Source of the DNA: a virus
DNA length: 20,980 nucleotides
Strand: one strand, 5' to 3'
Virus record (IMG/VR): IMGVR_UViG_3300010883_000626
Location: 1 to 20,980 of that record
Shown here: positions 11,396 through 20,980 of the stretch, in pieces
Layout: each line of letters starts with the position of its first letter
Numbering within the stretch: the stretch's first letter is position 1
Notes under the pieces: model-generated
Database searches by the model: none
What the model was told of the DNA's origin: nothing
The model's input: only the letters and a program-made list of their open reading frames with translations
Position numbers and translations under genes: made by a program

Positions 11396-12709
11396 ATGAG
11401 TCAATCTAGCAGAACATTAGTTGAAAAGTGGGGTCCTCTTCTCGAGCACTCTTCTTTCGCAGCAATCAAGGACGAGCACAGAAAAGCAGTTACTGCTACT
11501 CTTCTTGAAAACACAGAAAAAGCGCTTGTAGAAAGTGGCGACCAGTCTATTAACATGACTTCGCTTTTACAAGAAGCTCCAACAAACGCAGCTGGCACGG
11601 GCGGTTTCGGTTCGGGCGCAGGCACAAATCCAACAGCAGGCTATGATCCAGTATTGATCAGCTTGGTGCGTCGTTCCATGCCAAACCTAATGGCATATGA
11701 CATTGCTGGCGTGCAGCCGATGACAGGACCAACAGGTCTTATCTTCGCAATGCGCTCTAACATGAATGCAATGACAGGTAACACTGCACAAGAAGCATTC
11801 TACAACGAAGCCGATACAGACTTCTCTGGTACAGGTACAATGTCTAGCACAACTGGTGCGGGTGCAACAGCACCAACAGGTACAGGTCTTGCAACTGCAG
11901 ACGCTGAAGCACTTGGCGACGGTGGCGGCACACAATTTGCAGAAATGGCGCTTGCTATTGAAAAAGTAACTGTTGCTGCTAAATCACGTGCGTTGAAAGC
12001 AGAATACACCACAGAGCTAGCACAAGATCTTCGTGCTGTTCATGGTCTTGATGCCGAAACAGAACTTGCAAACATTCTTCAATCTGAAATCCTAGCGGAA
12101 ATCAACCGTGAAGTTGTTCGTACAATCTATAGCACTGCGGTAACTGGTGCAGCTGGAACTGCTTCAGCCGGTGTGTTCGACTTAGACGTCGATGCAAACG
12201 GTCGTTGGTCAGTAGAGAAATTTAAAGGCTTGATGTTCCAGGTTGAAATCGAAGCTAACGCGATTGCAAAAGCAACTCGTCGCGGTAAAGGTAACATTGT
12301 AATTTGTTCTTCTGACGTAGCGTCAGCATTGCAAATGTCCGGTGTTCTTGATTACACACCAGCACTTAACAGCAACGCAATTAACGTTGATGATACAGGC
12401 AACACATTCGCCGGTATCTTGAACGGTCGTTACAGAGTGTACATCGATCCATATGCAGGTTCAAACTACCTAGTAGTAGGATATAAAGGTTCTAGCGCAT
12501 TCGATGCAGGCCTCTTCTATTGCCCATACGTTCCATTGCAAATGTATCGTGCGGTCGGTGAGAATTCCTTCCAGCCAAAAATTGGCTTTAAAACACGTTA
12601 TGGTATGGTTGCTAATCCATTCGCAGCTGGCCCAACACGTAGTGAAGGTGCTCTTACAGATAACACTAACGTATACTACCGCAGAGTTCGCATCAGCAAC
12701 CTCTTCTAG
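11396..12709 (+). CDS. 23: Major capsid protein, T4 gp23 family (HK97 fold)
   Basis: The 437-residue product is shorter than T4 gp23 (521) but typical of marine T4-like phages. The N-terminal propeptide (about 1-60) is helical and ends in S-L-L-Q-E|A-P, a good match to the (I/L)-x-E prohead protease site. Mature protein would therefore begin at Ala61. The following segments G-Y-D-P-V-L-I-S-L-V-R-R-S-M-P-N-L, P-M-T-G-P-T-G-L-I-F-A-M-R and S-R-A-L-K-A-E-Y-T are classic gp23 signatures, and F-N/Q-P-K-I-G-F-K-T-R-Y-G lies near the C-terminus. It forms the hexamers of the icosahedral head. GC content looks higher than in neighbouring genes, in line with high expression. A terminator follows directly. 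Confidence 0.98.
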   Translation: MSQSSRTLVEKWGPLLEHSSFAAIKDEHRKAVTATLLENTEKALVESGDQSINMTSLLQEAPTNAAGTGGFGSGAGTNPTAGYDPVLISLVRRSMPNLMAYDIAGVQPMTGPTGLIFAMRSNMNAMTGNTAQEAFYNEADTDFSGTGTMSSTTGAGATAPTGTGLATADAEALGDGGGTQFAEMALAIEKVTVAAKSRALKAEYTTELAQDLRAVHGLDAETELANILQSEILAEINREVVRTIYSTAVTGAAGTASAGVFDLDVDANGRWSVEKFKGLMFQVEIEANAIAKATRRGKGNIVICSSDVASALQMSGVLDYTPALNSNAINVDDTGNTFAGILNGRYRVYIDPYAGSNYLVVGYKGSSAFDAGLFYCPYVPLQMYRAVGENSFQPKIGFKTRYGMVANPFAAGPTRSEGALTDNTNVYYRRVRISNLF

Positions 12710-12973: not shown

Positions 12974-13282
12974 CTATGAACCACTCTTTTCAATTTGTCT
13001 TGAAACTGGAGCCATCACCGCAGATGCAAATTCCATAAATTCTTCATTGCGTGCTGCTTCTTCCATTAAGTTTGAAGCGTGAAAAATTCTAGCAAGTTTG
13101 TTAAAATCTTTTTTTGATACGTTTACTTTTTCAAGAATTTGTTCTGCAATATCTTTTTGTAAGTCTTTTTCTGCCGAAATTCTTGTCATAGAATCTGACA
13201 TTTCTCGTAATGCATTTTGAATAACTTTGCGATCGCTGTCTGTAATAACAGATGGCAAAGATTGTGTTGTTTGAGTATTCAT
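12974..13282 (-). CDS. dsbA: DsbA-like double-stranded DNA-binding protein (late transcription accessory)
   Basis: This 102-residue, mainly helical, charged protein has a central segment K-D-I-A-E-Q-I-L-E-K-V-N-V-S-K-K-D-F-N-K that aligns with T4 DsbA (K-D-I-R-I-R-A-K-D-E-L-G-V-D-G-K-M-F-N-R). A second match is A-R-I-F-H-A-S-N against L-A-L-Y-H-K-D-N, and the C-terminal E-E-F-M-E-F-A-S-A-V matches E-E-V-V-E-L-Y-D-A-V. T4 DsbA (89 residues) binds double-stranded DNA near late promoters and assists late transcription. The gene overlaps the preceding nucleotidyltransferase gene by four bases. The assignment is from remembered sequence similarity and is moderately secure. The N-terminal 25 residues are extra relative to T4. 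Confidence 0.6.
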   Translation of the reverse strand: MNTQTTQSLPSVITDSDRKVIQNALREMSDSMTRISAEKDLQKDIAEQILEKVNVSKKDFNKLARIFHASNLMEEAARNEEFMEFASAVMAPVSRQIEKSGS

Positions 13283-13686
13283 AATATACCTTTCTTTCTC
13301 ATTTCTTCTCTTATTTTAGTAGCACTTATATCATGGGTTTCTTCACCGAGATCGTGTTCAGTAAAAGTGTATCCTACATCACGGCCATAGCTAATGTCGA
13401 CAATGTTTGGCACTTCAAGGATAAGATATTCATAACCATTGCGAAAACCGTGCTGCTCTAATCTGTTTTCAATATTAGAAATTACATCAATAATACCAAA
13501 GGGGTTATCATCTTGCAGACGAGTCCGCCCAGAACCAGCATCGCCTTCATATTGATAAACATCGCGTATCATAATTACAACCTGGCCAGTAATAGAATAG
13601 GCTTGCTTAAACAATTCGGTATGTCCGTCATGCCAAGGCTGCCAACGTCCTAACATCTGCACTGAGGGTTTCTTATAATCAAACAT
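13279..13686 (-). CDS. HxGH nucleotidyltransferase (cytidylyltransferase / NMN adenylyltransferase-like)
   Basis: This 135-residue single-domain enzyme has the nucleotidyltransferase motif G-R-W-Q-P-W-H-D-G-H (about residues 13-22) and the C-terminal I-S-A-T-K-I-R-E-E-M (about 119-128), which equals the I-S-S-T-x-x-R signature. Both bind the NTP triphosphate. An N-P-F segment in the middle resembles NMN adenylyltransferases. The family joins a nucleotide to a phosphorylated small molecule and releases pyrophosphate. The substrate here could be a phosphoalcohol/sugar phosphate or nicotinamide mononucleotide; sequence alone does not decide. The start ATG 13686 overlaps the end of the APS-kinase-like gene by eight bases, so the two products are probably made together and may act in one pathway. 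Confidence 0.75.
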   Translation of the reverse strand: MFDYKKPSVQMLGRWQPWHDGHTELFKQAYSITGQVVIMIRDVYQYEGDAGSGRTRLQDDNPFGIIDVISNIENRLEQHGFRNGYEYLILEVPNIVDISYGRDVGYTFTEHDLGEETHDISATKIREEMRKKGIL

Positions 13687-14134
13687 AATCAGCTCCCAAG
13701 TTATATCCTTTACCTTGTTTTAAAAGAGAATAGCGCTGTATTACTTTTGAAAGAATTTCAGGAGTATTGGTAAACCATTCCTTAACATGATAATCGCACT
13801 CAACCGGATCCTCAAATATTTTGTTTGTGTCTTTAAATTTACTTTCTTTAATAGTATCCATCCACACTGTAAAGTCGGCATCAAACGCTAATCGAGTTTC
13901 TTTAGTTGGGCATACGAAATCACTTACACAATTCTTACCTGCCCGAATCACTCCATCGCTTAAATGTTTCATACGCAAAGCCTGCCGTATACGTCCCTTT
14001 GGACTAAAATCCCAATCATCGTACAATTGCCTAACCTCATCTGCGTTGATGTACACGGCATCGATAATATTTGCAAAGGGTTCAGCTAACGTAGATTTAC
14101 CCGAACCTGGCAGCCCAAATATAAGTATTTTCAT
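13679..14134 (-). CDS. APS-kinase-like P-loop kinase (CysC-like)
   Basis: The product has 151 residues. The Walker A motif G-L-P-G-S-G-K-S-T is at about residues 7-15. I-N-A-D-E-V-R (about 29-35) replaces the CysC segment D-G-D-N-V-R. D-F-S-P-K-G-R-I-R (about 42-50) matches G-F-S-x-x-D-R, and D-F-V-C-P-T-K-E-T-R (about 72-81) matches the CysC A-F-I-S-P-x-R-x-x-R segment. Typical APS kinases have about 190-200 residues, so this one is compact. CysC makes 3'-phosphoadenylyl sulfate from APS and ATP. Related P-loop kinases act on other small molecules or on polynucleotide ends, so the substrate is uncertain. The gene overlaps the membrane-protein gene before it by four bases. Confidence 0.65.
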   Translation of the reverse strand: MKILIFGLPGSGKSTLAEPFANIIDAVYINADEVRQLYDDWDFSPKGRIRQALRMKHLSDGVIRAGKNCVSDFVCPTKETRLAFDADFTVWMDTIKESKFKDTNKIFEDPVECDYHVKEWFTNTPEILSKVIQRYSLLKQGKGYNLGADYV

Positions 14135-14499
14135 TGTTTCTCATCCTCTAAATTTTGTTGTAAAAACCCAAGAATATTAGTTAATAAAAATATTGTCGAA
14201 TGCGCAAACATAAAGCCAGCAAAAATCATATATCCTTGGTGATACACCTGATATGAAGATAACAGGTATAGCAGGGAAATTAATATTAAAATATGATAAT
14301 TATGGTCGTTTTTGTCTTCTTTATGTTTAATGAAACCCGAAAGCATGCTTGCTGCTGCAATAGATTGCATAAAGCCGATATAACTAACCATTCCCATAAC
14401 TGGGTACATGGCCCAGGCTATACCATAGGTTGAAGCAAAAATAGAGCCAGCTTGGAACAGCGCGTTTGCAGTTGCGGTGTATATATTACTTGTAAACAA
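14131..14499 (-). CDS. Small multi-pass membrane protein of unknown function
   Basis: The 122-residue product has three or four hydrophobic helices: about residues 14-34, 36-57, 67-85 and 88-110. A hydrophilic K-H-K-E-D-K-N-D-H-N-Y-H loop sits near 58-69, and the C-terminus is charged. The start is TTG at 14499, supported by AAAAGGT seven bases upstream. The next in-frame ATG would remove the first helix. The gene begins 12 bases after the ALAS stop and its own stop overlaps the APS-kinase-like start. It therefore lies within one transcript between two metabolic enzymes, which could mean a transport or anchoring role, but nothing in the sequence shows this. Confidence 0.75.
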   Translation of the reverse strand: MFTSNIYTATANALFQAGSIFASTYGIAWAMYPVMGMVSYIGFMQSIAAASMLSGFIKHKEDKNDHNYHILILISLLYLLSSYQVYHQGYMIFAGFMFAHSTIFLLTNILGFLQQNLEDEKQ

Positions 14500-14511
14500 T
14501 TGATGTACCTT

Positions 14512-15717
14512 TTATTCATTGGTAGATAAAATTTCTTTTAACGCTGTTACTAATTCCATCATCATAACATCCGTGTGATAAGGAGTTGGCGCTATTCTTA
14601 ATCTTTCAGTACCCGGGTCAACTGTGGGACTGTTAATCGCTTGAATATATATCCCATACTCATTAAGAAGTCTATCGCTTGCTTCCTTTGTTTTAAATGG
14701 ATCGTTTACCATGACTGGAATAATGTGAGTGCACGCATTTGGATGAATACTAATGCCGCGATCTGACATCATTTTCTTTAGTTTTTTTGTTCTCGCTTGG
14801 TGTATATCTCGTAAAGAAGAATTATCCCTTAGATAATTTATGGAGGCGAGAGCCCCAGCACATAGTACAGGTGACATGCTTGTAGTGAATATAAATCCAC
14901 TTGCCACCGATCTAATAGCGTCAATAATTTCTCTGTCACCTGCAATATAACCTCCTTGCACGCCGAAAGCTTTGCCTAAAGTGCCGTTGATAATGTCAAT
15001 ATCGTCAGCATATAAATTTAAATGTTCGCAATAGCCCGCACCCGTAGGACCATATAAACCCACGGCGTGAACTTCATCAATATATGTCATTGCTTCGTAT
15101 TTGTGAGCAAGTGCTACAATGTCTTTAATAGGAGAAACATCGCCATCCATACTATACACAGACTCAAAAACAATTACAGGGTTTAGTTTTTCTTTTTTCG
15201 CGAGCTTTAATTGATTTTCTAAATCTTCCATATCATTGTGTTTAAATATTTTCTTCTCTGACCTTGAATGCTTAATTCCCATAATTAGGGAAGCGTGATT
15301 TTTATTGTCAGAAATAAAACAAATATCTGGTATGATACGAGATAAAGCTATTAGAGACCATTCGTTTGCTACAAACGCGCTAGTAAATAACAGCGACGCA
15401 CTCTTATTGTGCAATGAAGCTATTTCTCTTTCAAGAGTTACGTGATAATGTGACGTACCTCCAATATTACGCGTACCTCCAGAACCAGCGCCTGTTTGAT
15501 TTAACGCAGTTTGCATAGAATCAATAACATGCTGGTTTTGACCCATGCCTAAATAGTCGTTAGAACACCAGTTAATTATGTTTTTTGGAGCGTATTTTCC
15601 ATACCATACAGATCTAGGAAACTTTCCACGTTCTCTTAATATGTCATTAAAAATTCTATAACGACCATCGTCTTTAAAGTCTTTAATTGTTTCGTTGATA
15701 TATTTTAAATATTTCAC
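14512..15717 (-). CDS. hemA: 5-aminolevulinate synthase (ALAS), phage-encoded auxiliary metabolic enzyme
   Basis: This 401-residue PLP enzyme condenses glycine with succinyl-CoA to 5-aminolevulinate, the first step of the Shemin route to haem, bacteriochlorophyll and cobalamin. Signature segments are present in order: R-Y-R-I-F (Arg21), [10 protein letters not shown] (Asn53), G-G-T-R-N-I-G-G-T (Thr82), H141, [10 protein letters not shown] (Asp214, His217), G-T-L-G-K-A-F-G (PLP lysine Lys249) and [13 protein letters not shown] (Arg374). Thr82 and the P-T-V-x-x-G-T-E-R-L-R segment separate ALAS from the sister enzymes KBL and BioF. The protein is full length with no lesion. The start is GTG 15717 with AGGAT nine bases upstream; a nearby ATG is out of frame. 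No strong promoter lies directly before it, so it is probably read through from the DUF932 promoter. Confidence 0.93.
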
Positions 15718-15747
15718 TCATATATCCTAAATTATTGGATGTTATTA

Positions 15748-15770
15748 GGAGTAGCCCTTAAGGCCACTCC
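15748..15770 (-). other. Intergenic RNA hairpin between the DUF932 gene and ALAS
   Basis: A nine-base stem (plus strand ggagtagcc / ggccactcc, one G-U pair on the minus-strand RNA) with a five-base loop lies in the 66-base gap. It is followed on the minus strand by TAATAACATC, which is AT-rich but not a U-tract. It could be a weak terminator or attenuator, or a processing/stability element that lowers ALAS expression relative to DUF932. Confidence 0.4.
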
Positions 15771-15783
15771 ACATAAAATCGTG

Positions 15784-16740
15784 TTAACAAGCATCAGCCA
15801 TATCCAACGCAGTGGTAAGTGCGTCAACTTTGCGTTTAGCGTTTCCACCAAACCACGCAGAAGCCATTCGAGTATCAGCAGAGCGACCTAGTTTGTGGTC
15901 AGTCATATAGGTTACTGCGTTATATGCATTCCACCATGTTCCAGGCGCAAATTCACAGCCTGGTTGGTCTTCAACAATAGACATAGCTTCTTTTGCTGTG
16001 CGCGCTAAAATTTCTTTTTCTTTTGTTGATTTGCCAAATACGATACCAAAAAACTCAGTAAGTTTTTCGTCTGTGTAACGCTTAGATCCAAGAAACTCTG
16101 CAGCTTCTTTAAATTGTTCAACGCGGTTGTGACCAAGACCTAGAATTTCTTTTACACTTTCAGGATTGAACACTGAGCGATGGTTAACGCGAACAGATGG
16201 TTGACCTACTTCATTAAGTGCAACTGACAAAGTGTTATTGCAAACAACACGCTCCATCACAAACTTAATGTCGATTGCTTTGCCGTACTGGTGTGGGTTT
16301 GAGAAAAGCAAGTAGCCTTTCACTTCATCACCACCAAATAGCGAAAAGCCGTCTTTTACATCAGCCAGTGCCCATACAATTTGACCATCTTTAAGTGAAC
16401 CAGCGGTATCCATTTGCATGTCGCCAGCACGTACAAAGTCAGTAAAGAAGTCAAAAGCTTCTGAATTTTGAACTGGGTTCCAACCTTGACCAACTTGTGT
16501 GAGAATTTTACCATCAGTTGAGCGAACTAATGCTTGTTGACCAGTTTCTATTTGCTCATCTTTGTAATTAATAAATGTATTAACTTTTTCAACAGACCAA
16601 TCAAGCCCTGCAGCTTCCATAATTTGTTGAGGAGTCATCTCATCTGAGACTGGGACGCCTAATCCATGCCAAGGTAGACCTTTGCTTGCACGGTATGCCA
16701 TTTGAGCTTGACCGTTAACCATTTCAATTTCATGTGCCAT
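15784..16740 (-). CDS. DUF932 / phage-plasmid-like protein (TIGR03299 type)
   Basis: This 318-residue soluble protein has the family N-terminus M-A-H-E-I-E-M and W-H-G-L-G-V-P-V (about residues 24-31). These are followed by L-T-Q-V-G-x-G-W-x-P-V-Q-N, L-L-F-S-N-P-H, R-V-V-C-N-N-T-L (about 164-171) and, near the C-terminus, T-W-W-N-A-Y-N-A-V-T. DUF932 proteins are common in phages and plasmids, and their biochemical role is not established. The length is typical. The gene has its own near-consensus sigma-70 promoter and a TAGGAAT ribosome site 10 bases before ATG 16740. GC content appears higher than in its small neighbours, which suggests strong early expression. Confidence 0.88.
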   Translation of the reverse strand: MAHEIEMVNGQAQMAYRASKGLPWHGLGVPVSDEMTPQQIMEAAGLDWSVEKVNTFINYKDEQIETGQQALVRSTDGKILTQVGQGWNPVQNSEAFDFFTDFVRAGDMQMDTAGSLKDGQIVWALADVKDGFSLFGGDEVKGYLLFSNPHQYGKAIDIKFVMERVVCNNTLSVALNEVGQPSVRVNHRSVFNPESVKEILGLGHNRVEQFKEAAEFLGSKRYTDEKLTEFFGIVFGKSTKEKEILARTAKEAMSIVEDQPGCEFAPGTWWNAYNAVTYMTDHKLGRSADTRMASAWFGGNAKRKVDALTTALDMADAC

Positions 16741-16775
16741 GATATATTCCTAATTTGTTTTCATTTGATATATTA

Positions 16776-16804
16776 AATATACACTGATTCTTTCGTATTG
16801 TCAA
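16776..16804 (-). promoter_or_regulatory. Early sigma-70-type promoter of the DUF932-ALAS operon
   Basis: Read on the minus strand, TTGACA (16804-16799) is followed by a 17-base spacer and TATATT (16781-16776). The -10 box is preceded by AATCAGTG, and the sequence upstream of -35 is AT-rich (UP-element-like). The expected start of transcription near 16769 gives a leader of about 30 bases. Confidence 0.85.
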
Positions 16805-16818
16805 TAGTTAATTTGAAA

Positions 16819-16995
16819 TTAATTCAAACTATTTCTCTGAGACTCGACAATCATTTGCATTTCAATATCCTCGGCTCTACGCTGAAATTCTTCAGCGAGG
16901 TCTAGAATTTTAAACGCGGGAATTTTTGAATTTGGCCCATCAGTATGGCGGATGAGCTCGCGGAGTTTAGTAATCATTTCGTAATATTCTAACAT
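16819..16995 (-). CDS. Small uncharacterised helical protein (58 residues)
   Basis: A 58-codon frame runs from ATG 16995 to TAA 16819. It begins M-L-E-Y-Y-E-M-I-T-K-L-R-E-L-I-R, has a short T-D-G-P-N-S linker, and continues with a second helix-like part (A-E-E-F-Q-R-R-A-E-D-I-E-M-Q-M). It reads as a small charged helical hairpin. Support for a real gene is strong despite its size: a TGAGGAAT ribosome site lies nine bases upstream, a dedicated near-consensus promoter precedes it, and it fills a 317-base gap. The function is unknown. Confidence 0.8.
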   Translation of the reverse strand: MLEYYEMITKLRELIRHTDGPNSKIPAFKILDLAEEFQRRAEDIEMQMIVESQRNSLN

Positions 16996-17021
16996 AATAT
17001 ATTCCTCATTTTCATAATTAT

Positions 17022-17050
17022 ATTATACACTGATTCTAAATAAATGTAAA
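17022..17050 (-). promoter_or_regulatory. Early sigma-70-type promoter of the 58-residue protein gene
   Basis: On the minus strand TTTACA (17050-17045), a 17-base spacer and a perfect TATAAT (17027-17022) are present. The 11 bases before the -10 box include GAATCAGTG, identical to the DUF932 promoter. Confidence 0.82.
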
Positions 17051-17057
17051 GGAAAAG

Positions 17058-17357
17058 TTAATGTATTTCCGTTGAACTCATTTCAATAGAGTCTACCATA
17101 TTGTGCGTGTATTGATGATAACCGTTTTTCAAAAGATCAACTACATGCACAAATTTGCTGTCAGTTTCTATTCCAATAACTAGCCATTCCTCTTTAGCTT
17201 TATACATATGGTCATCGATAAACTCTTCAGCTTCTTCTTTTGTACTAAAACTAATTGCTTTCGATAACCCGAAGACGTCGGTTTTTGCAAAAACACCTTG
17301 GTTTTTAAATGCACCTAAGAAGAAACCTAGATTTTCTTCTGCTATCGTATACCGCAT
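17058..17357 (-). CDS. Uncharacterised small protein (99 residues)
   Basis: The preferred start is ATG 17357 (M-R-Y-T-I-A-E-E-N-L-G). It lies beyond the upstream gene's stop and has AAAAGG about ten bases before it. A longer version from TTG 17393 would overlap the neighbour and lacks such a site. The protein has a mixed alpha/beta pattern: F-F-L-G-A-F, a K-E-E-A-E-E-F-I-D-D-H helix (about residues 40-50), then E-E-W-L-V-I-G-I-E and V-H-V-V-D-L-L. No family or catalytic motif was recognised. It follows the conserved 185-residue gene by 19 bases on the same transcript. Confidence 0.72.
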   Translation of the reverse strand: MRYTIAEENLGFFLGAFKNQGVFAKTDVFGLSKAISFSTKEEAEEFIDDHMYKAKEEWLVIGIETDSKFVHVVDLLKNGYHQYTHNMVDSIEMSSTEIH

Positions 17358-17376
17358 TAAACTTGACCTTTTAAAT

Positions 17377-17934
17377 TTAAGTTGCAACTTCAAACCAATC
17401 TGGTATTTTTCTTTTTGACCAAGCCATTTTAAAACGGTGTTGCTTTGTTTGATAAAATTTTCTATAAGACTCTACCACATTATTTTCATCCATACATTCT
17501 GGATTTGATTTCATCGCAAGAGGCTGTGAAGTCAAAGGACCAAGCGGGATGTTTTTTGGTAGACTTTCTAAAATATTTTTTAACAGTTTATCAGTGGCGT
17601 GAACCTTTTCATAGCGATATTTATATTCTTCACAAAGCGCCGCGAAGTGCGCCCAGTGCCAATTATAATTGCTATTTGATTCTGCGGTCCAAACCGTGCA
17701 TGGGTGGTACATGTGTACGGGCTTATAGAGCGTATTCTCGCGACCGTCCGATAGCGTCCAATACTTAACCATCGACTTACCAGACTTTGAAAGTCTTCGC
17801 TCTAGACGCCCATCTAGCATGCGGTGGACGGTAGATAACATCTGCGCAGATTCGACAATCATTTTAACTACGTGCTTATCGCATTGTAATTGCGCGGATT
17901 TTACTGGGTGCTTATCAAGTATGAATAGATTCAT
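17377..17934 (-). CDS. Conserved phage protein of unknown function (185 residues, D-K-H-V-V-K family)
   Basis: The 185-residue sequence has a recognisable but unnamed pattern that I associate with many phage hypothetical proteins: M-N-L-F-I-L-D, C-D-K-H-V-V-K-M-I-V-E-S-A-Q-M-L (about residues 18-33), a H-P-C-T-V-W-x-x-E-S-x-x-N-Y-x-W-x-W-A-H block (about 77-95), and a C-terminal S-Y-R-x-F-Y...K-x-R-F/F-K-M-A-W block before P-D-W-F. The conserved His, Cys, Asp and Trp residues suggest a metal- or nucleic-acid-related enzyme, but no function is known to me. The start ATG 17934 overlaps the end of the SWIM-like gene by 20 bases, and TAGGA lies upstream. Confidence 0.72.
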   Translation of the reverse strand: MNLFILDKHPVKSAQLQCDKHVVKMIVESAQMLSTVHRMLDGRLERRLSKSGKSMVKYWTLSDGRENTLYKPVHMYHPCTVWTAESNSNYNWHWAHFAALCEEYKYRYEKVHATDKLLKNILESLPKNIPLGPLTSQPLAMKSNPECMDENNVVESYRKFYQTKQHRFKMAWSKRKIPDWFEVAT

Positions 17935-18130
17935 TATAAAATGTTTGTCCTACGCCTAAAATTCCAAGTTCTACTGATGTAATGTGTTTGCACTTATATA
18001 CCGCGCGCTTACTGCACGTACATGCAAATCCTGTTTCGTCCATTACTACTTCACAGCCCCTAAAAGTCCACGAGGTTCCATTAAAAGCATGCCCAACAGT
18101 ATTAATAAATTTTGATTTAAAGCTTTTCAT
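17915..18130 (-). CDS. Mini SWIM-type zinc-finger-like protein (71 residues)
   Basis: The 71-residue product has C-T-C (Cys37, Cys39), seven intervening residues, and C-K-H (Cys47, His49). The C-x-C-x(n)-C-x-H pattern of the SWIM zinc-binding domain is complete, and the preceding G-C-E-V-V and F-A strand residues fit the usual SWIM beta-hairpin. SWIM domains mediate DNA or protein binding and are normally part of larger proteins; here the motif makes up most of the gene. The start overlaps the stop of the previous gene (ATGA), and the 3' end overlaps the next gene. The zinc-binding function is inferred from the motif only. Confidence 0.65.
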   Translation of the reverse strand: MKSFKSKFINTVGHAFNGTSWTFRGCEVVMDETGFACTCSKRAVYKCKHITSVELGILGVGQTFYNESIHT

Positions 18131-18465
18131 GCTGCTACCTCTAATTGATTCTGCAGACGTTTATTCATAATTTTTTCATACCAAGCAGGATTTTTATCTT
18201 TGAGGATAGCTACCGGAGCCATTCCAAAAAGATAAGCATTTGCGTAATCTTCAACGGTGTGGTTTTTAATAAGCTCTTTCAGGAACTTTGCTTTAGTGAT
18301 TGGACCTTTATGCTTGAAGCGCGCAATAAAAAGATCTTTACCTTTGCCGATGCGTGTAGGATGAACACCTGGCTTATCTTCATACACTGGACGACCGTTA
18401 TAATCGCCAGTATATGTTAGGTAGCCACCGTGATAGTTGATTTTTGTTTTGTCAAAGCTTGTCAT
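18127..18465 (-). CDS. Uncharacterised protein (112 residues)
   Basis: The preferred start is ATG 18465 (M-T-S-F-D-K-T-K-I), which has GGTAAGGAAT upstream. A longer frame from 18507 would overlap the preceding gene and is less likely. The N-terminal half contains Y-H-G-G-Y-L-T-Y-T-G-D-Y-N-G-R-P-V-Y and is Gly/Tyr-rich, probably beta. The C-terminal half is basic and helical (K-A-K-F-L-K-E-L-I-K-N, W-Y-E-K-I-M-N-K-R). No known family was recognised. It sits 10 bases after the 89-residue gene in the same transcript and overlaps the SWIM-like gene by four bases. Confidence 0.75.
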   Translation of the reverse strand: MTSFDKTKINYHGGYLTYTGDYNGRPVYEDKPGVHPTRIGKGKDLFIARFKHKGPITKAKFLKELIKNHTVEDYANAYLFGMAPVAILKDKNPAWYEKIMNKRLQNQLEVAA

Positions 18466-18475
18466 ATTGTATTCC

Positions 18476-18745
18476 TTACCAATAGGCCACTTGGCCAGTA
18501 GATGCATTTTCTAGGATTGAGTTCAGCATAAGTTTGGCATCGCCGTCGTCAGCAAAACCTTCTTCTGAAGCAAAATCCATATCAGACGAAAGGAACAAAT
18601 CTTGGGCAACACCGTAGCAGCCAACCCAGAATTGGCCATCTTCGACAGTATCACAACGACGCTGGATTGAACCTTTGTCGGTGTCGATAGTGAAGATAAG
18701 ACCGGCTTCATTTGCATTTACGAAGTTGATACCAAGATTTTTCAT
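18476..18745 (-). CDS. Uncharacterised protein (89 residues), first gene of an early operon
   Basis: The 89-residue acidic protein begins M-K-N-L-G-I-N-F-V-N. It carries a beta-like segment A-G-L-I-F-T-I-D-T-D, two cysteines (Cys31 and Cys43), and an Asp/Glu-rich stretch near residues 54-69 (S-D-M-D-F-A-S-E-E-G-F). No family was recognised. The start ATG 18745 has AAAAGGAATC eight or so bases upstream and is preceded by a near-consensus promoter. It leads a run of overlapping or closely spaced genes (89, 112, 71, 185 and 99 residues). Confidence 0.75.
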   Translation of the reverse strand: MKNLGINFVNANEAGLIFTIDTDKGSIQRRCDTVEDGQFWVGCYGVAQDLFLSSDMDFASEEGFADDGDAKLMLNSILENASTGQVAYW

Positions 18746-18779
18746 TTGAGTGATTCCTTTTGATTCTCTTTATACTATT

Positions 18780-18808
18780 AATATAACCGAGTATACATGG
18801 AATGTCAA
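18780..18808 (-). promoter_or_regulatory. Early sigma-70-type promoter of the 89-residue protein operon
   Basis: On the minus strand TTGACA (18808-18803), a 17-base spacer and TATATT (18785-18780) are present. The 18 bases tgtcaatagttaatttga (plus strand, 18803-18820) are identical to 16799-16816 at the DUF932 promoter. Confidence 0.85.
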
Positions 18809-18827
18809 TAGTTAATTTGATTTAATT

Positions 18828-19496
18828 TCAAATTTCATAAAGTTCTTTATATTTTTTGCGAACTGCGAGAAAATGTGATAAGTAATCAAAAGTATTAATC
18901 TTAAAAACTTGAGATTCCGAGCCGTCAACTGCTATTAAGATAACTGCTTGCTTAATCGGGATGCCGGTGCGTTCAAAAAAAGCAGCTGCATAAAACGAAG
19001 CTTGAATAAAGTATCCTTCAATCCATTCAGCTTTTTTTGGTTTACGTGATGTTTTAAAGTCAATAATTGATAGCTCGCCATCGTATTCTGCAATACAGTC
19101 GACTTGGCCGGCGCATTTTAGTTTATCACTGTAAAGGAATTCTTCTTGCATCCATACATTATCAATCCGGCCGTCAATAATTTGGCGCAAGTCATTAAAC
19201 GTATTTAAATTGGCAGGCATGTGTTTACCTTTCCAATCTTCTTTATTGTTTAGGTAATCTTCTGCGAGAGTGTGTACTGCAGTACCTCGACCAGCGGCCT
19301 GACGAGAAATCTTGTTTGCTTCTTCCTCGCCCACGCGTTTACGCCATTCTAAAATGCCTTGTTTACTTAAAATCCCAAGTACTGTTGTGATGGATGGATA
19401 TGCATTACCGTCAGGCGTAAAATACTTACGACCAGACTCGGTAGTTTTGCGTGTTAGTTTGGGTAGCTCTACGCTATGATCGACATGGTTAAACAT
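18828..19496 (-). CDS. PD-(D/E)XK nuclease (RecB/Cas4-like exonuclease family)
   Basis: I place the start at ATG 19496 (222 residues). The longer frame from 19538 would begin inside the promoter, upstream of the predicted transcript start, while AAAGGAATC sits just before 19496. Visible motifs are G-R-G-T-A-V-H (about residues 75-81, helix before the core), G-Q-V-D-C-I-A-E (Asp in the first core strand), L-S-I-I-D-F-K-T (the D-x-K catalytic pair) and Y-F-I-Q-A-S-F-Y-A (the Q-x-x-x-Y helix typical of RecB-like nucleases). Metal-dependent nucleases of this type act on DNA ends or single-stranded DNA, and in a T4-like phage may serve recombination or host DNA breakdown. The core residues are all present. 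Confidence 0.85.
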   Translation of the reverse strand: MFNHVDHSVELPKLTRKTTESGRKYFTPDGNAYPSITTVLGILSKQGILEWRKRVGEEEANKISRQAAGRGTAVHTLAEDYLNNKEDWKGKHMPANLNTFNDLRQIIDGRIDNVWMQEEFLYSDKLKCAGQVDCIAEYDGELSIIDFKTSRKPKKAEWIEGYFIQASFYAAAFFERTGIPIKQAVILIAVDGSESQVFKINTFDYLSHFLAVRKKYKELYEI

Positions 19497-19520
19497 TCTT
19501 TGATTCCTTTGATATTTTCT

Positions 19521-19549
19521 ATTATACACTAATATCAAAAGAATGTCAA
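19521..19549 (-). promoter_or_regulatory. Early sigma-70-type promoter of the nuclease gene
   Basis: This is a perfect TTGACA (19549-19544), 17-base spacer and perfect TATAAT (19526-19521) on the minus strand, with TTAGTG before the -10 box. It lies directly after the stop codon of the protease gene. The predicted start near 19514 gives a leader of only about 18 bases with an AAAGGAA ribosome site. Confidence 0.9.
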
Positions 19550-19554
19550 CAACA

Positions 19555-20980
19555 TTAACCTCTTCGTCTAATCCTTGGACGAGGCCACATTCTTTTCCCG
19601 TAATAAACTAAATCATCATCAACATGTCGTGGCCTAAAGTTTCTTTGTGGGAACGGTGCGCCATCTACTGGTCTTTGGTTAGTCCATTTTGCAAATCTGT
19701 TAGGAGCGCCCTGCAAGCTAGCAATATCCATCGCGTTGTCCGCGCCAGTATCAGTTATTTGATTTTCATTACAAAAATCGATTAACCATTGATGTGCTTC
19801 AGCCTGTCTCATATTAGGCCAATGTTCTGCAAGACACGCGAGAATACCACACACTTGCGGAGATGCCATGCTCGTTCCTTGCATTTTACCTTTGTAATAG
19901 TTCGTATTCCTATTATCGTATATCGCTGAACTAAACTGCGCTCCAGCGGGTGTGTGCAAACTACTGTGTATTGCAGTACCAGCTGCGAATATATCAACTT
20001 GGCTTCCGCAATTGCTAAAGGTACCTTTATAATCTTCCTTATTAATTCCAATAGCACCAACTGTTATATGTGGCGCGTATCCAGCCCCGCCATACCCGTT
20101 TCCCCTATGATAATATTGTGTCGAGTATCCATAATTAGTAAGGTAAGCAGTCAAAGTATTGTTATAATCTTGGTCTGCGGAATTTACTATTTTCCAAGAC
20201 TCGTTGCCAGCAGCGCCGCACATAACTATCCCGTCGTCCATTGCATCTTGAATATCCGCCTCGAATGACACACTATAAGCTGGTACTCCGCCTGGTGAAT
20301 CGTCATCTGTGTAAAAACCTCTTGCTTGAAGTTCTGCTACCGTTAGAGCTCTTCCTGGTGAAAAGTGTGTACCTCGATATGTCACTGCAGTAATAGGACC
20401 CCAAACGCCTTGATTGTAATGTTGCTGGGAGCTATAGCTGTGATTTGATATTGTAGGATTAACCCTGCCAGTTACAGGGTTAATCGGTTTAGAATTGTGC
20501 CAAGCTCTTATATAATCCCAAAATGTGTCGCTGCCAAACCCTAGAACACCCCAGTTTGGATTGTCATTCAACGGATTCAGATTGTATATATTAGCGTCTC
20601 TAGCCCAACCTTGGGAATTACCTGCTGCAGTCCCGCCGACGTGCACACCGTGATTATTAGTTGCTTCTGCCGAGCCTGGACCTGCATAAGGAGTGTATAC
20701 GTATGAGCCAGTGCCAGCCCCAACGTTATTTTGAAACCAATTATATTGAACAACACGGGATCCTCCAGAACCGTTAGAATTTACTGAAAATTCTGGATGA
20801 CCAGGGTCTATGTGGCCATCAACAATCAGAACATCAACGTTTCTTCCAGATGCTGTTATAATTAAATTGAATGCAATATTACTGCCATCCTCTTGGATCG
20901 TTCCAGTTGTCGTTCCATACACAATACCGTAAATCATTTTGCGCAAAAAGGCCTGGTTGGTAGAATTATAATAAGCAGGC
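19555..20980 (-). CDS. Subtilisin-like (S8) serine protease domain, C-terminal part of a longer protein (5' end outside window)
   Basis: The frame stays open to the edge of the window. Codons upstream of the first possible start (TTG 20946, ATG 20937) encode Y-Y-N-S-T-N-Q-A-F with no stop, so the true N-terminus probably lies beyond 20980. Numbered from the TTG, the subtilase triad is Asp43 in L-I-V-D-G-H, His99 in N-H-G-V-H-V-G-G-T and Ser359 in G-T-S-M-A-S-P. Asn248 in G-A-A-G-N is the oxyanion-hole residue. The His-to-Ser spacing is longer than in subtilisin. The C-terminus is unusually basic (P-R-P-R-I-R-R-R-G). No signal peptide is visible. The role is unknown; virion maturation, degradation of host surface material or defence inhibition are possible. 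Confidence 0.85.
   Translation of the reverse strand, partial: PAYYNSTNQAFLRKMIYGIVYGTTTGTIQEDGSNIAFNLIITASGRNVDVLIVDGHIDPGHPEFSVNSNGSGGSRVVQYNWFQNNVGAGTGSYVYTPYAGPGSAEATNNHGVHVGGTAAGNSQGWARDANIYNLNPLNDNPNWGVLGFGSDTFWDYIRAWHNSKPINPVTGRVNPTISNHSYSSQQHYNQGVWGPITAVTYRGTHFSPGRALTVAELQARGFYTDDDSPGGVPAYSVSFEADIQDAMDDGIVMCGAAGNESWKIVNSADQDYNNTLTAYLTNYGYSTQYYHRGNGYGGAGYAPHITVGAIGINKEDYKGTFSNCGSQVDIFAAGTAIHSSLHTPAGAQFSSAIYDNRNTNYYKGKMQGTSMASPQVCGILACLAEHWPNMRQAEAHQWLIDFCNENQITDTGADNAMDIASLQGAPNRFAKWTNQRPVDGAPFPQRNFRPRHVDDDLVYYGKRMWPRPRIRRRG

Follow-up and report, generated by a model that had tools for sequence, protein, structure and literature searches.

Phage-borne 5-aminolevulinate synthase (ALAS) genes, named valaS (protein, vAlaS), have been described from marine and freshwater viromes, where haem oxygenase and PcyA/X genes accompany them (Wegner et al. 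2024, Nat Commun 15:8783; PMC11480375). One freshwater vAlaS member made 5-aminolevulinate (ALA) and complemented the E. coli auxotroph ST18 (PMC11480375), and a 2026 estuary study followed a phage ALAS gene in viromes and transcriptomes (PMC13390420). An earlier note on the DNA analysed here had suspected that aquatic phages with Shemin-pathway genes were not a new concept, and these publications prove it right: phage ALAS is already known, and what is new here is its movable position and its neighbours. The stretch that we analysed as a whole (the window) is a 20,980-base IMG/VR virus record, a fragment. Our overall reading, which we hold to be highly probable, is that it encodes an active, PLP-dependent ALAS, carried as an optional metabolic cassette by a T4-like aquatic phage with a probably alphaproteobacterial host.

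The ALAS gene and its genomic setting

The plus strand of the window carries a T4-like structural run including terminase, portal and a gp23-type capsid, and the remaining plus-strand genes can be read, by order and sequence, as sheath, tube, prohead protease and scaffold. The T4-like carrier proposed in the earlier note is thus borne out by terminase, portal and gp23-type capsid genes beside ALAS. In several contigs ALAS is flanked by T4-type capsid, terminase, portal and sheath genes together with phage replication genes, which argues against a contaminating bacterial contig. The features around ALAS are as follows.

11396–12709, plus: T4 gp23-type major capsid protein (PF07068, E 2e-143; 65% identical to Sinorhizobium phage phiN3)
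12719–12776, no strand assigned: terminator-like hairpins where the capsid (late) and ALAS-strand runs converge (consensus scan)
12974–13282, minus: DsbA-type transcription regulator, end of the ALAS-strand run (PF11126, phrog_639)
13279–13686, minus: cytidylyltransferase-like protein, ALAS-strand run (second half of phrog_10255; weak PF01467)
13679–14134, minus: AAA/APS-kinase-like nucleotide kinase, ALAS-strand run (first half of phrog_10255; PF13671/PF01583)
14131–14499, minus: 122-aa small membrane-like protein, the next gene after ALAS, bounding the cassette site on the right (persists without ALAS)
14512–15717, minus: ALAS gene (valaS/hemA type), 401 aa, GTG start (TIGR01821, active site, tree, selection)
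15718–15783, minus: DUF932–ALAS intergenic stretch with the hairpin GGAGTGGCC..GGGCTACTCC (-21.9 kcal/mol for the stretch)
15784–16740, minus: DUF932/TIGR03299 phage protein, the gene directly before ALAS, bounding the cassette site on the left (profiles, synteny)
16776–16804, minus: sigma-70-like promoter TTGACA-17-TATATT (11/12) upstream of DUF932 (consensus scan only)

The ALAS strand therefore reads DUF932, ALAS, 122-aa protein, nucleotide kinase, cytidylyltransferase-like protein and DsbA-type regulator, and the sigma-70-like site is a candidate early promoter of this operon. On the structural strand the T4 late-promoter motif TATAAATA was counted eight times, in most cases directly ahead of a gene, against a single copy on the ALAS strand, a bias suggesting that the ALAS strand is not late; from these consensus matches we infer early expression of ALAS. 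Relatives have hairpins of differing sequence after DUF932, and the DUF932–ALAS hairpin may act in read-through or attenuation. Neither RNA elements nor tRNAs were found in the window, and the 122-aa protein gave no Pfam match. The overlapping kinase and nucleotidyltransferase genes at 13279–14134 correspond to the two halves of one family, phrog_10255, and so form a split/fused pair. Elsewhere in the window, a protein of repeated 'IDKFPFAADGNATDVGDLT' units (32–1027) is probably a tail or appendage repeat protein. A subtilase domain lies at 19555–20946; the full protein measures 798 aa in the sibling contig described below (L233) and adjoins a 1560-aa collagen-like repeat protein, both being possible tail or adhesin proteins.

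The ALAS open reading frame runs from 15717 to 14512 through 401 codons and no internal stops, and its start position is shared with close homologues, most of which use ATG where the window has GTG. The TIGR01821 (5-aminolevulinate synthase) profile matched residues 1–398 with 543.8 bits, 205 bits above its curated equivalog cut-off of 338.55; the gene is intact and full-length, as first claimed. The top solved structures by sequence are ALASs (7x98, 1e-124; 2bwn, 1e-115). ALAS structures were also best in a fold search with an AlphaFold model, which was of moderate quality (pLDDT 73.5, 11 sequences used) and added little. The eight residues that the earlier note had placed in register with bacterial ALAS (Arg21, Asn53, Thr82, His141, Asp214, His217, Lys249 and Arg374) do align with R21, N54, T83, H142, D214, H217, K248 and R374 of the R. 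capsulatus enzyme, and each is invariant across 94 phage and 110 bacterial ALASs except for one gap in a truncated phage sequence. Ser136, Ser189, Thr246 and Thr365 are retained too. Indeed, the PLP lysine (K249) and the PLP Asp/His, glycine and succinate residues (D214, H217, H141, R374, N53, S189, R21, N84 and T365) are all present, and the further glycine-, succinate- and PLP-contacting residues checked are invariant or nearly so in the same 94 phage and 110 bacterial sequences. Against close phage relatives the dN/dS of the gene is ~0.03–0.08, a range counting only relatives with measurable dS and with synonymous sites near saturation; it indicates strong purifying constraint. Together these findings are far beyond chance: the protein is a true member of the ALAS family and appears functional.

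The fold and the PLP site are common to the whole alpha-oxoamine synthase family, and KBL and BioF profiles match the window protein as well, which would suit a KBL, BioF, SPT or autoinducer synthase that acts on another acyl-CoA or amino acid. Every rival profile stays below its cut-off (BioF, 318.1 bits against 426.45; KBL, 255.6 against 493; SPT likewise under its own), whereas the ALAS profile lies far above. A tree of ALAS, KBL and BioF sequences, proposed beforehand as a check, placed the phage clade inside ALAS and KBL and BioF outside. Moreover, the succinate-binding Arg21, Asn84 and Thr365 are retained. We consider another substrate class very improbable; KBL, BioF and SPT were dropped on their sub-cut-off scores, and for KBL and BioF also on the tree. 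The original choice of ALAS over KBL/BioF is thereby upheld.

Ancestry and host

In both trees the phage ALASs grouped as a single clade (98% SH-aLRT in one, 100/100 with all bootstrap trees in the other), separate from all bacteria sampled. The window ALAS falls in this clade, whose phage members were taken from IMG/VR, and its relatives occur in at least 586 places in that database. The nearest bacterial ALAS among those sampled is 56% identical to it, and the highest phage–bacterium identity seen, 62%, belongs to a different phage. The closest-donor search suggested in the earlier note accordingly named no donor: in a limited sample, the best 80 genome loci and 385 genomes drawn evenly from the class, no bacterium exceeded 56%. 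Among the isolated phages of INPHARED no ALAS was found; the 19 matches to the window protein are at most 34% identical, those annotated informatively are KBL or BioF, and some of these are bacterial sequence filed as phage or transduced bio genes.

The window ALAS is therefore best read as long resident in phages and not as a copy lately taken from a host. Recent acquisition from the present host, perhaps of neutral effect, would agree with the optional nature of the cassette and the empty site in a close relative (below). Such an event is contradicted by a best bacterial match of 56%, where more than about 85% would be needed, and also by the deep phage clade with its many relatives and by the low dN/dS; we give it almost no chance. 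Recent host transfer and a named donor were accordingly dropped on the 56% identity. Since the clade is phage-only and bacterial identity so low, no donor can be named and ALAS does not indicate the host.

The earlier note had held ALAS to be the best single clue to the host group, a claim that these results do not support. The head genes are closest to the Sinorhizobium T4-like phages phiM12/phiN3 (terminase 57–59%, portal 53%, capsid 65%), in which no ALAS match was found. Capsid identity is nearly equal for three phage groups (Sinorhizobium phages 65%, Stenotrophomonas phages 64%, Methylophilales phages 62%), so head genes are indecisive. A better clue than ALAS, with its phage-only clade and bacterial matches of 56% at most, is given by a 201-kb relative (G002), which carries 24 tRNAs and an alphaproteobacterial-type permuted tmRNA (RF01849, L222:382-728; 102.9 bits against a cut-off of 50) with the tag ANANRAPAMAIAA. 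This tmRNA and the phiM12-like head genes favour an alphaproteobacterial host, which is unproven because the Stenotrophomonas and Methylophilales capsid identities are nearly as high as that of Sinorhizobium.

Companion genes and a movable cassette

A sibling contig (G001, L001) shares window positions 13904–20980 (4 mismatches over 7,077 bases) and extends a further 15.6 kb. At the equivalent of window position 35260–35952, ~20 kb from ALAS, it encodes a bilin reductase that matches the phage PcyX structure 5owg (2.6e-80) and keeps Asp55, a residue named as PcyX-specific (PMC11480375). No haem oxygenase was found in the window or the sibling contig, both of which are fragments. The 201-kb relative G002 encodes haem oxygenase and bilin reductase, and the two occur together in 6 of the 9 ALAS contigs of at least 80 kb; ALAS contigs without haem oxygenase or bilin reductase also exist (e.g. 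G037, 156 kb; G009, 110 kb). With a bilin reductase in the same population and haem oxygenase in relatives, the context speaks no less for turnover of ALA, by way of haem, into bilin and iron than for a supply of haem. None of the companion genes noted here hints at bacteriochlorophyll or corrinoids. The earlier proposal that ALAS boosts haem, bacteriochlorophyll or corrinoid supply is therefore plausible but too narrow.

Other genes were observed in related contigs. An alternative oxidase (PF01786) lies near ALAS in L168 (5837–6430) and also in L165, L170 and L171, suggesting a link to respiration, and a ferritin/Dps-like gene lies between ALAS and a DUF454 gene in L011 (7180–7620) and L015 (7180–7617). 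In one very large phage contig (L290; G447, 327 kb) genes for haem oxygenase, bilin reductase and DUF454 cluster within ~5 kb, and ALAS is missing.

In the proposed mechanism, the phage ALAS would form ALA, which host enzymes would convert to haem; in phages that also have haem oxygenase and PcyX, some of this haem would be passed on to yield biliverdin, phycoerythrobilin and free iron. The parts of this scheme that we infer are its early timing, the escape from control, the flux to haem and bilin, and the host. ALAS might instead mainly supply haem and cytochromes for respiration in the infected cell, with haem oxygenase and bilin reductase serving a separate purpose. This model is preferred in PMC11480375 and fits both the ALAS contigs that have neither companion gene (G037, G009) and the alternative oxidase beside ALAS in some contigs. 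ALAS, haem oxygenase and bilin reductase stand together in the majority of long contigs, among them the long one closest to the window, and the window's own population has the bilin reductase; we rate the respiratory role as a serious contender with somewhat less than an even chance. A role in tRNA economy, in which a Shemin enzyme in C5-pathway hosts would leave more glutamyl-tRNA for making phage proteins, was also put forward in PMC11480375, where one valaS phage was assigned to a gammaproteobacterium. It appears improbable for this phage: the alphaproteobacterial-type tmRNA of G002 points to a Shemin-pathway host, as do the nearest isolated phages by head genes, which infect Sinorhizobium, the host itself not being proven.

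As to escape from control within the ALA-to-haem-to-bilin reading, phage ALAS was proposed to evade haem feedback on account of absent His342/Cys400 (PMC11480375). Position 342 of the window ALAS is Lys. This argument deserves caution because only 4 of the 110 bacterial ALASs sampled, a set biased to those most like phage ALASs, carry His342. The idea that His342 loss is a phage adaptation is likewise weakened, most of the sampled bacteria being without it too.

Phage ALAS is also accompanied by a DUF454/YbaN-type membrane protein (PF04304; ~97 bits against a cut-off of 35.1). It adjoins or lies near ALAS in 75 of 89 IMG/VR loci (e.g. L101:9194-9667), and in 46 of these 89 its start lies no more than 60 bases from where ALAS ends. 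The ALAS loci without DUF454 belong to the window's own clade or to contigs ending within 1 kb, so that it is found in every relative outside that clade whose contig continues for 1 kb or more downstream. On the scale of whole contigs DUF454 is present in 42 of 47, a count that shared ancestry partly accounts for, contigs being non-independent samples. The ALAS–DUF454 pair is found in several different gene contexts. By comparison, DUF454 was near none of the 110 bacterial ALAS loci, and phage records gave 2 matches in 50,697, both weak and both in Acinetobacter records. No DUF454 was seen in the window itself, which is a fragment. YbaN belongs to the core Fur regulon of E. coli (PMC10164565, PMC7157518), and DUF454 occurs near haem oxygenase in T11SS loci (PMC12282271); our literature search found no paper linking DUF454/YbaN to phages or phage ALAS.

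A 183-kb relative (G448) shares synteny with the window over the region that begins with the gene at 1047 and ends with the subtilase (terminase 91% and capsid 94% identical). Here DUF932 and the 122-aa protein lie ~185 bases apart (matched ends) with no ALAS between them (L296, G448:145001-165000), and the whole contig gave no TIGR01821 match. This empty site indicates that ALAS is optional and that the 122-aa protein, which remains there, is not tied to it; the latter was accordingly rejected as an ALAS partner. The spacer at this site is similar to the very end (a few bases) of a related ALAS gene together with the leader that follows it, which fits loss of ALAS and is no proof of it. In both G002 and G448, DUF454 stands at a locus that we read from the sequences as nrdB–nrdA, where other phages have nrdB, nrdA, ALAS and DUF454. 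It therefore seems that, in the clade to which the window belongs, ALAS shifted to the DUF932 site and left DUF454 behind. Taken together, ALAS is best described as an optional, relocating cassette in this phage family. G448 retains haem oxygenase, bilin reductase and DUF454; because it keeps the first two without ALAS, ALAS is not essential to the haem oxygenase/bilin reductase step.

These observations allow a tentative model, which we hold to be less likely than not: ALAS, haem oxygenase, PcyX and DUF454/YbaN might form a four-part haem-turnover set in which DUF454 acts in membrane tetrapyrrole or iron handling, and in which DUF454, haem oxygenase and PcyX are stable while ALAS is swapped in and out or between sites. 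If so, phages would offer a way of finding out what YbaN does, since DUF454 accompanies ALAS in every testable locus beyond the clade of the window.

Significance and comparison with known systems

The results confirm and extend the view that phages control how tetrapyrrole synthesis begins, the most interesting leads being the optional, relocating ALAS cassette and the DUF454 link. A near-identical T4-like backbone with ALAS (the window, G002 and G003) and without it (G448) offers a natural comparison in which the benefit of ALAS is testable, and the tie to DUF454/YbaN opens a new approach to an iron-regulated membrane protein of E. coli and Caulobacter whose role is unexplained.

Like valaS (PMC11480375), the window gene is phage-borne in myovirus-type phages, keeps the catalytic lysine and substrate residues, falls in a phage clade apart from bacteria and, in relatives, is often accompanied by haem oxygenase and PcyA/X, as a complete set or as a 'broken cassette'. 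Among the isolates searched, the window's head genes are nearest those of Sinorhizobium T4-like phages and not those of the pelagiphages reported in that paper, and its ALAS has DUF932 on one side and a 122-aa membrane-like protein on the other; the empty site and the DUF454 companion seen here are absent from the text of PMC11480375. With the alphaproteobacterial ALAS/HemA of R. capsulatus (2bwn) and R. palustris (7x98) the protein shares full-length alignment, ~48–50% identity (structure alignment) and the active site, and it differs in its separate phage clade, a shorter C-terminal tail and the Lys at position 342. The sibling bilin reductase resembles PcyX (5owg) in its 2.6e-80 match and its Asp55; its setting is different in that it lies ~20 kb from ALAS, with no haem oxygenase found on the fragment. 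Finally, for DUF454/YbaN others have reported a link to iron (Fur regulon; haem oxygenase in T11SS loci); in the relatives of the window it is phage-borne and tied to ALAS.
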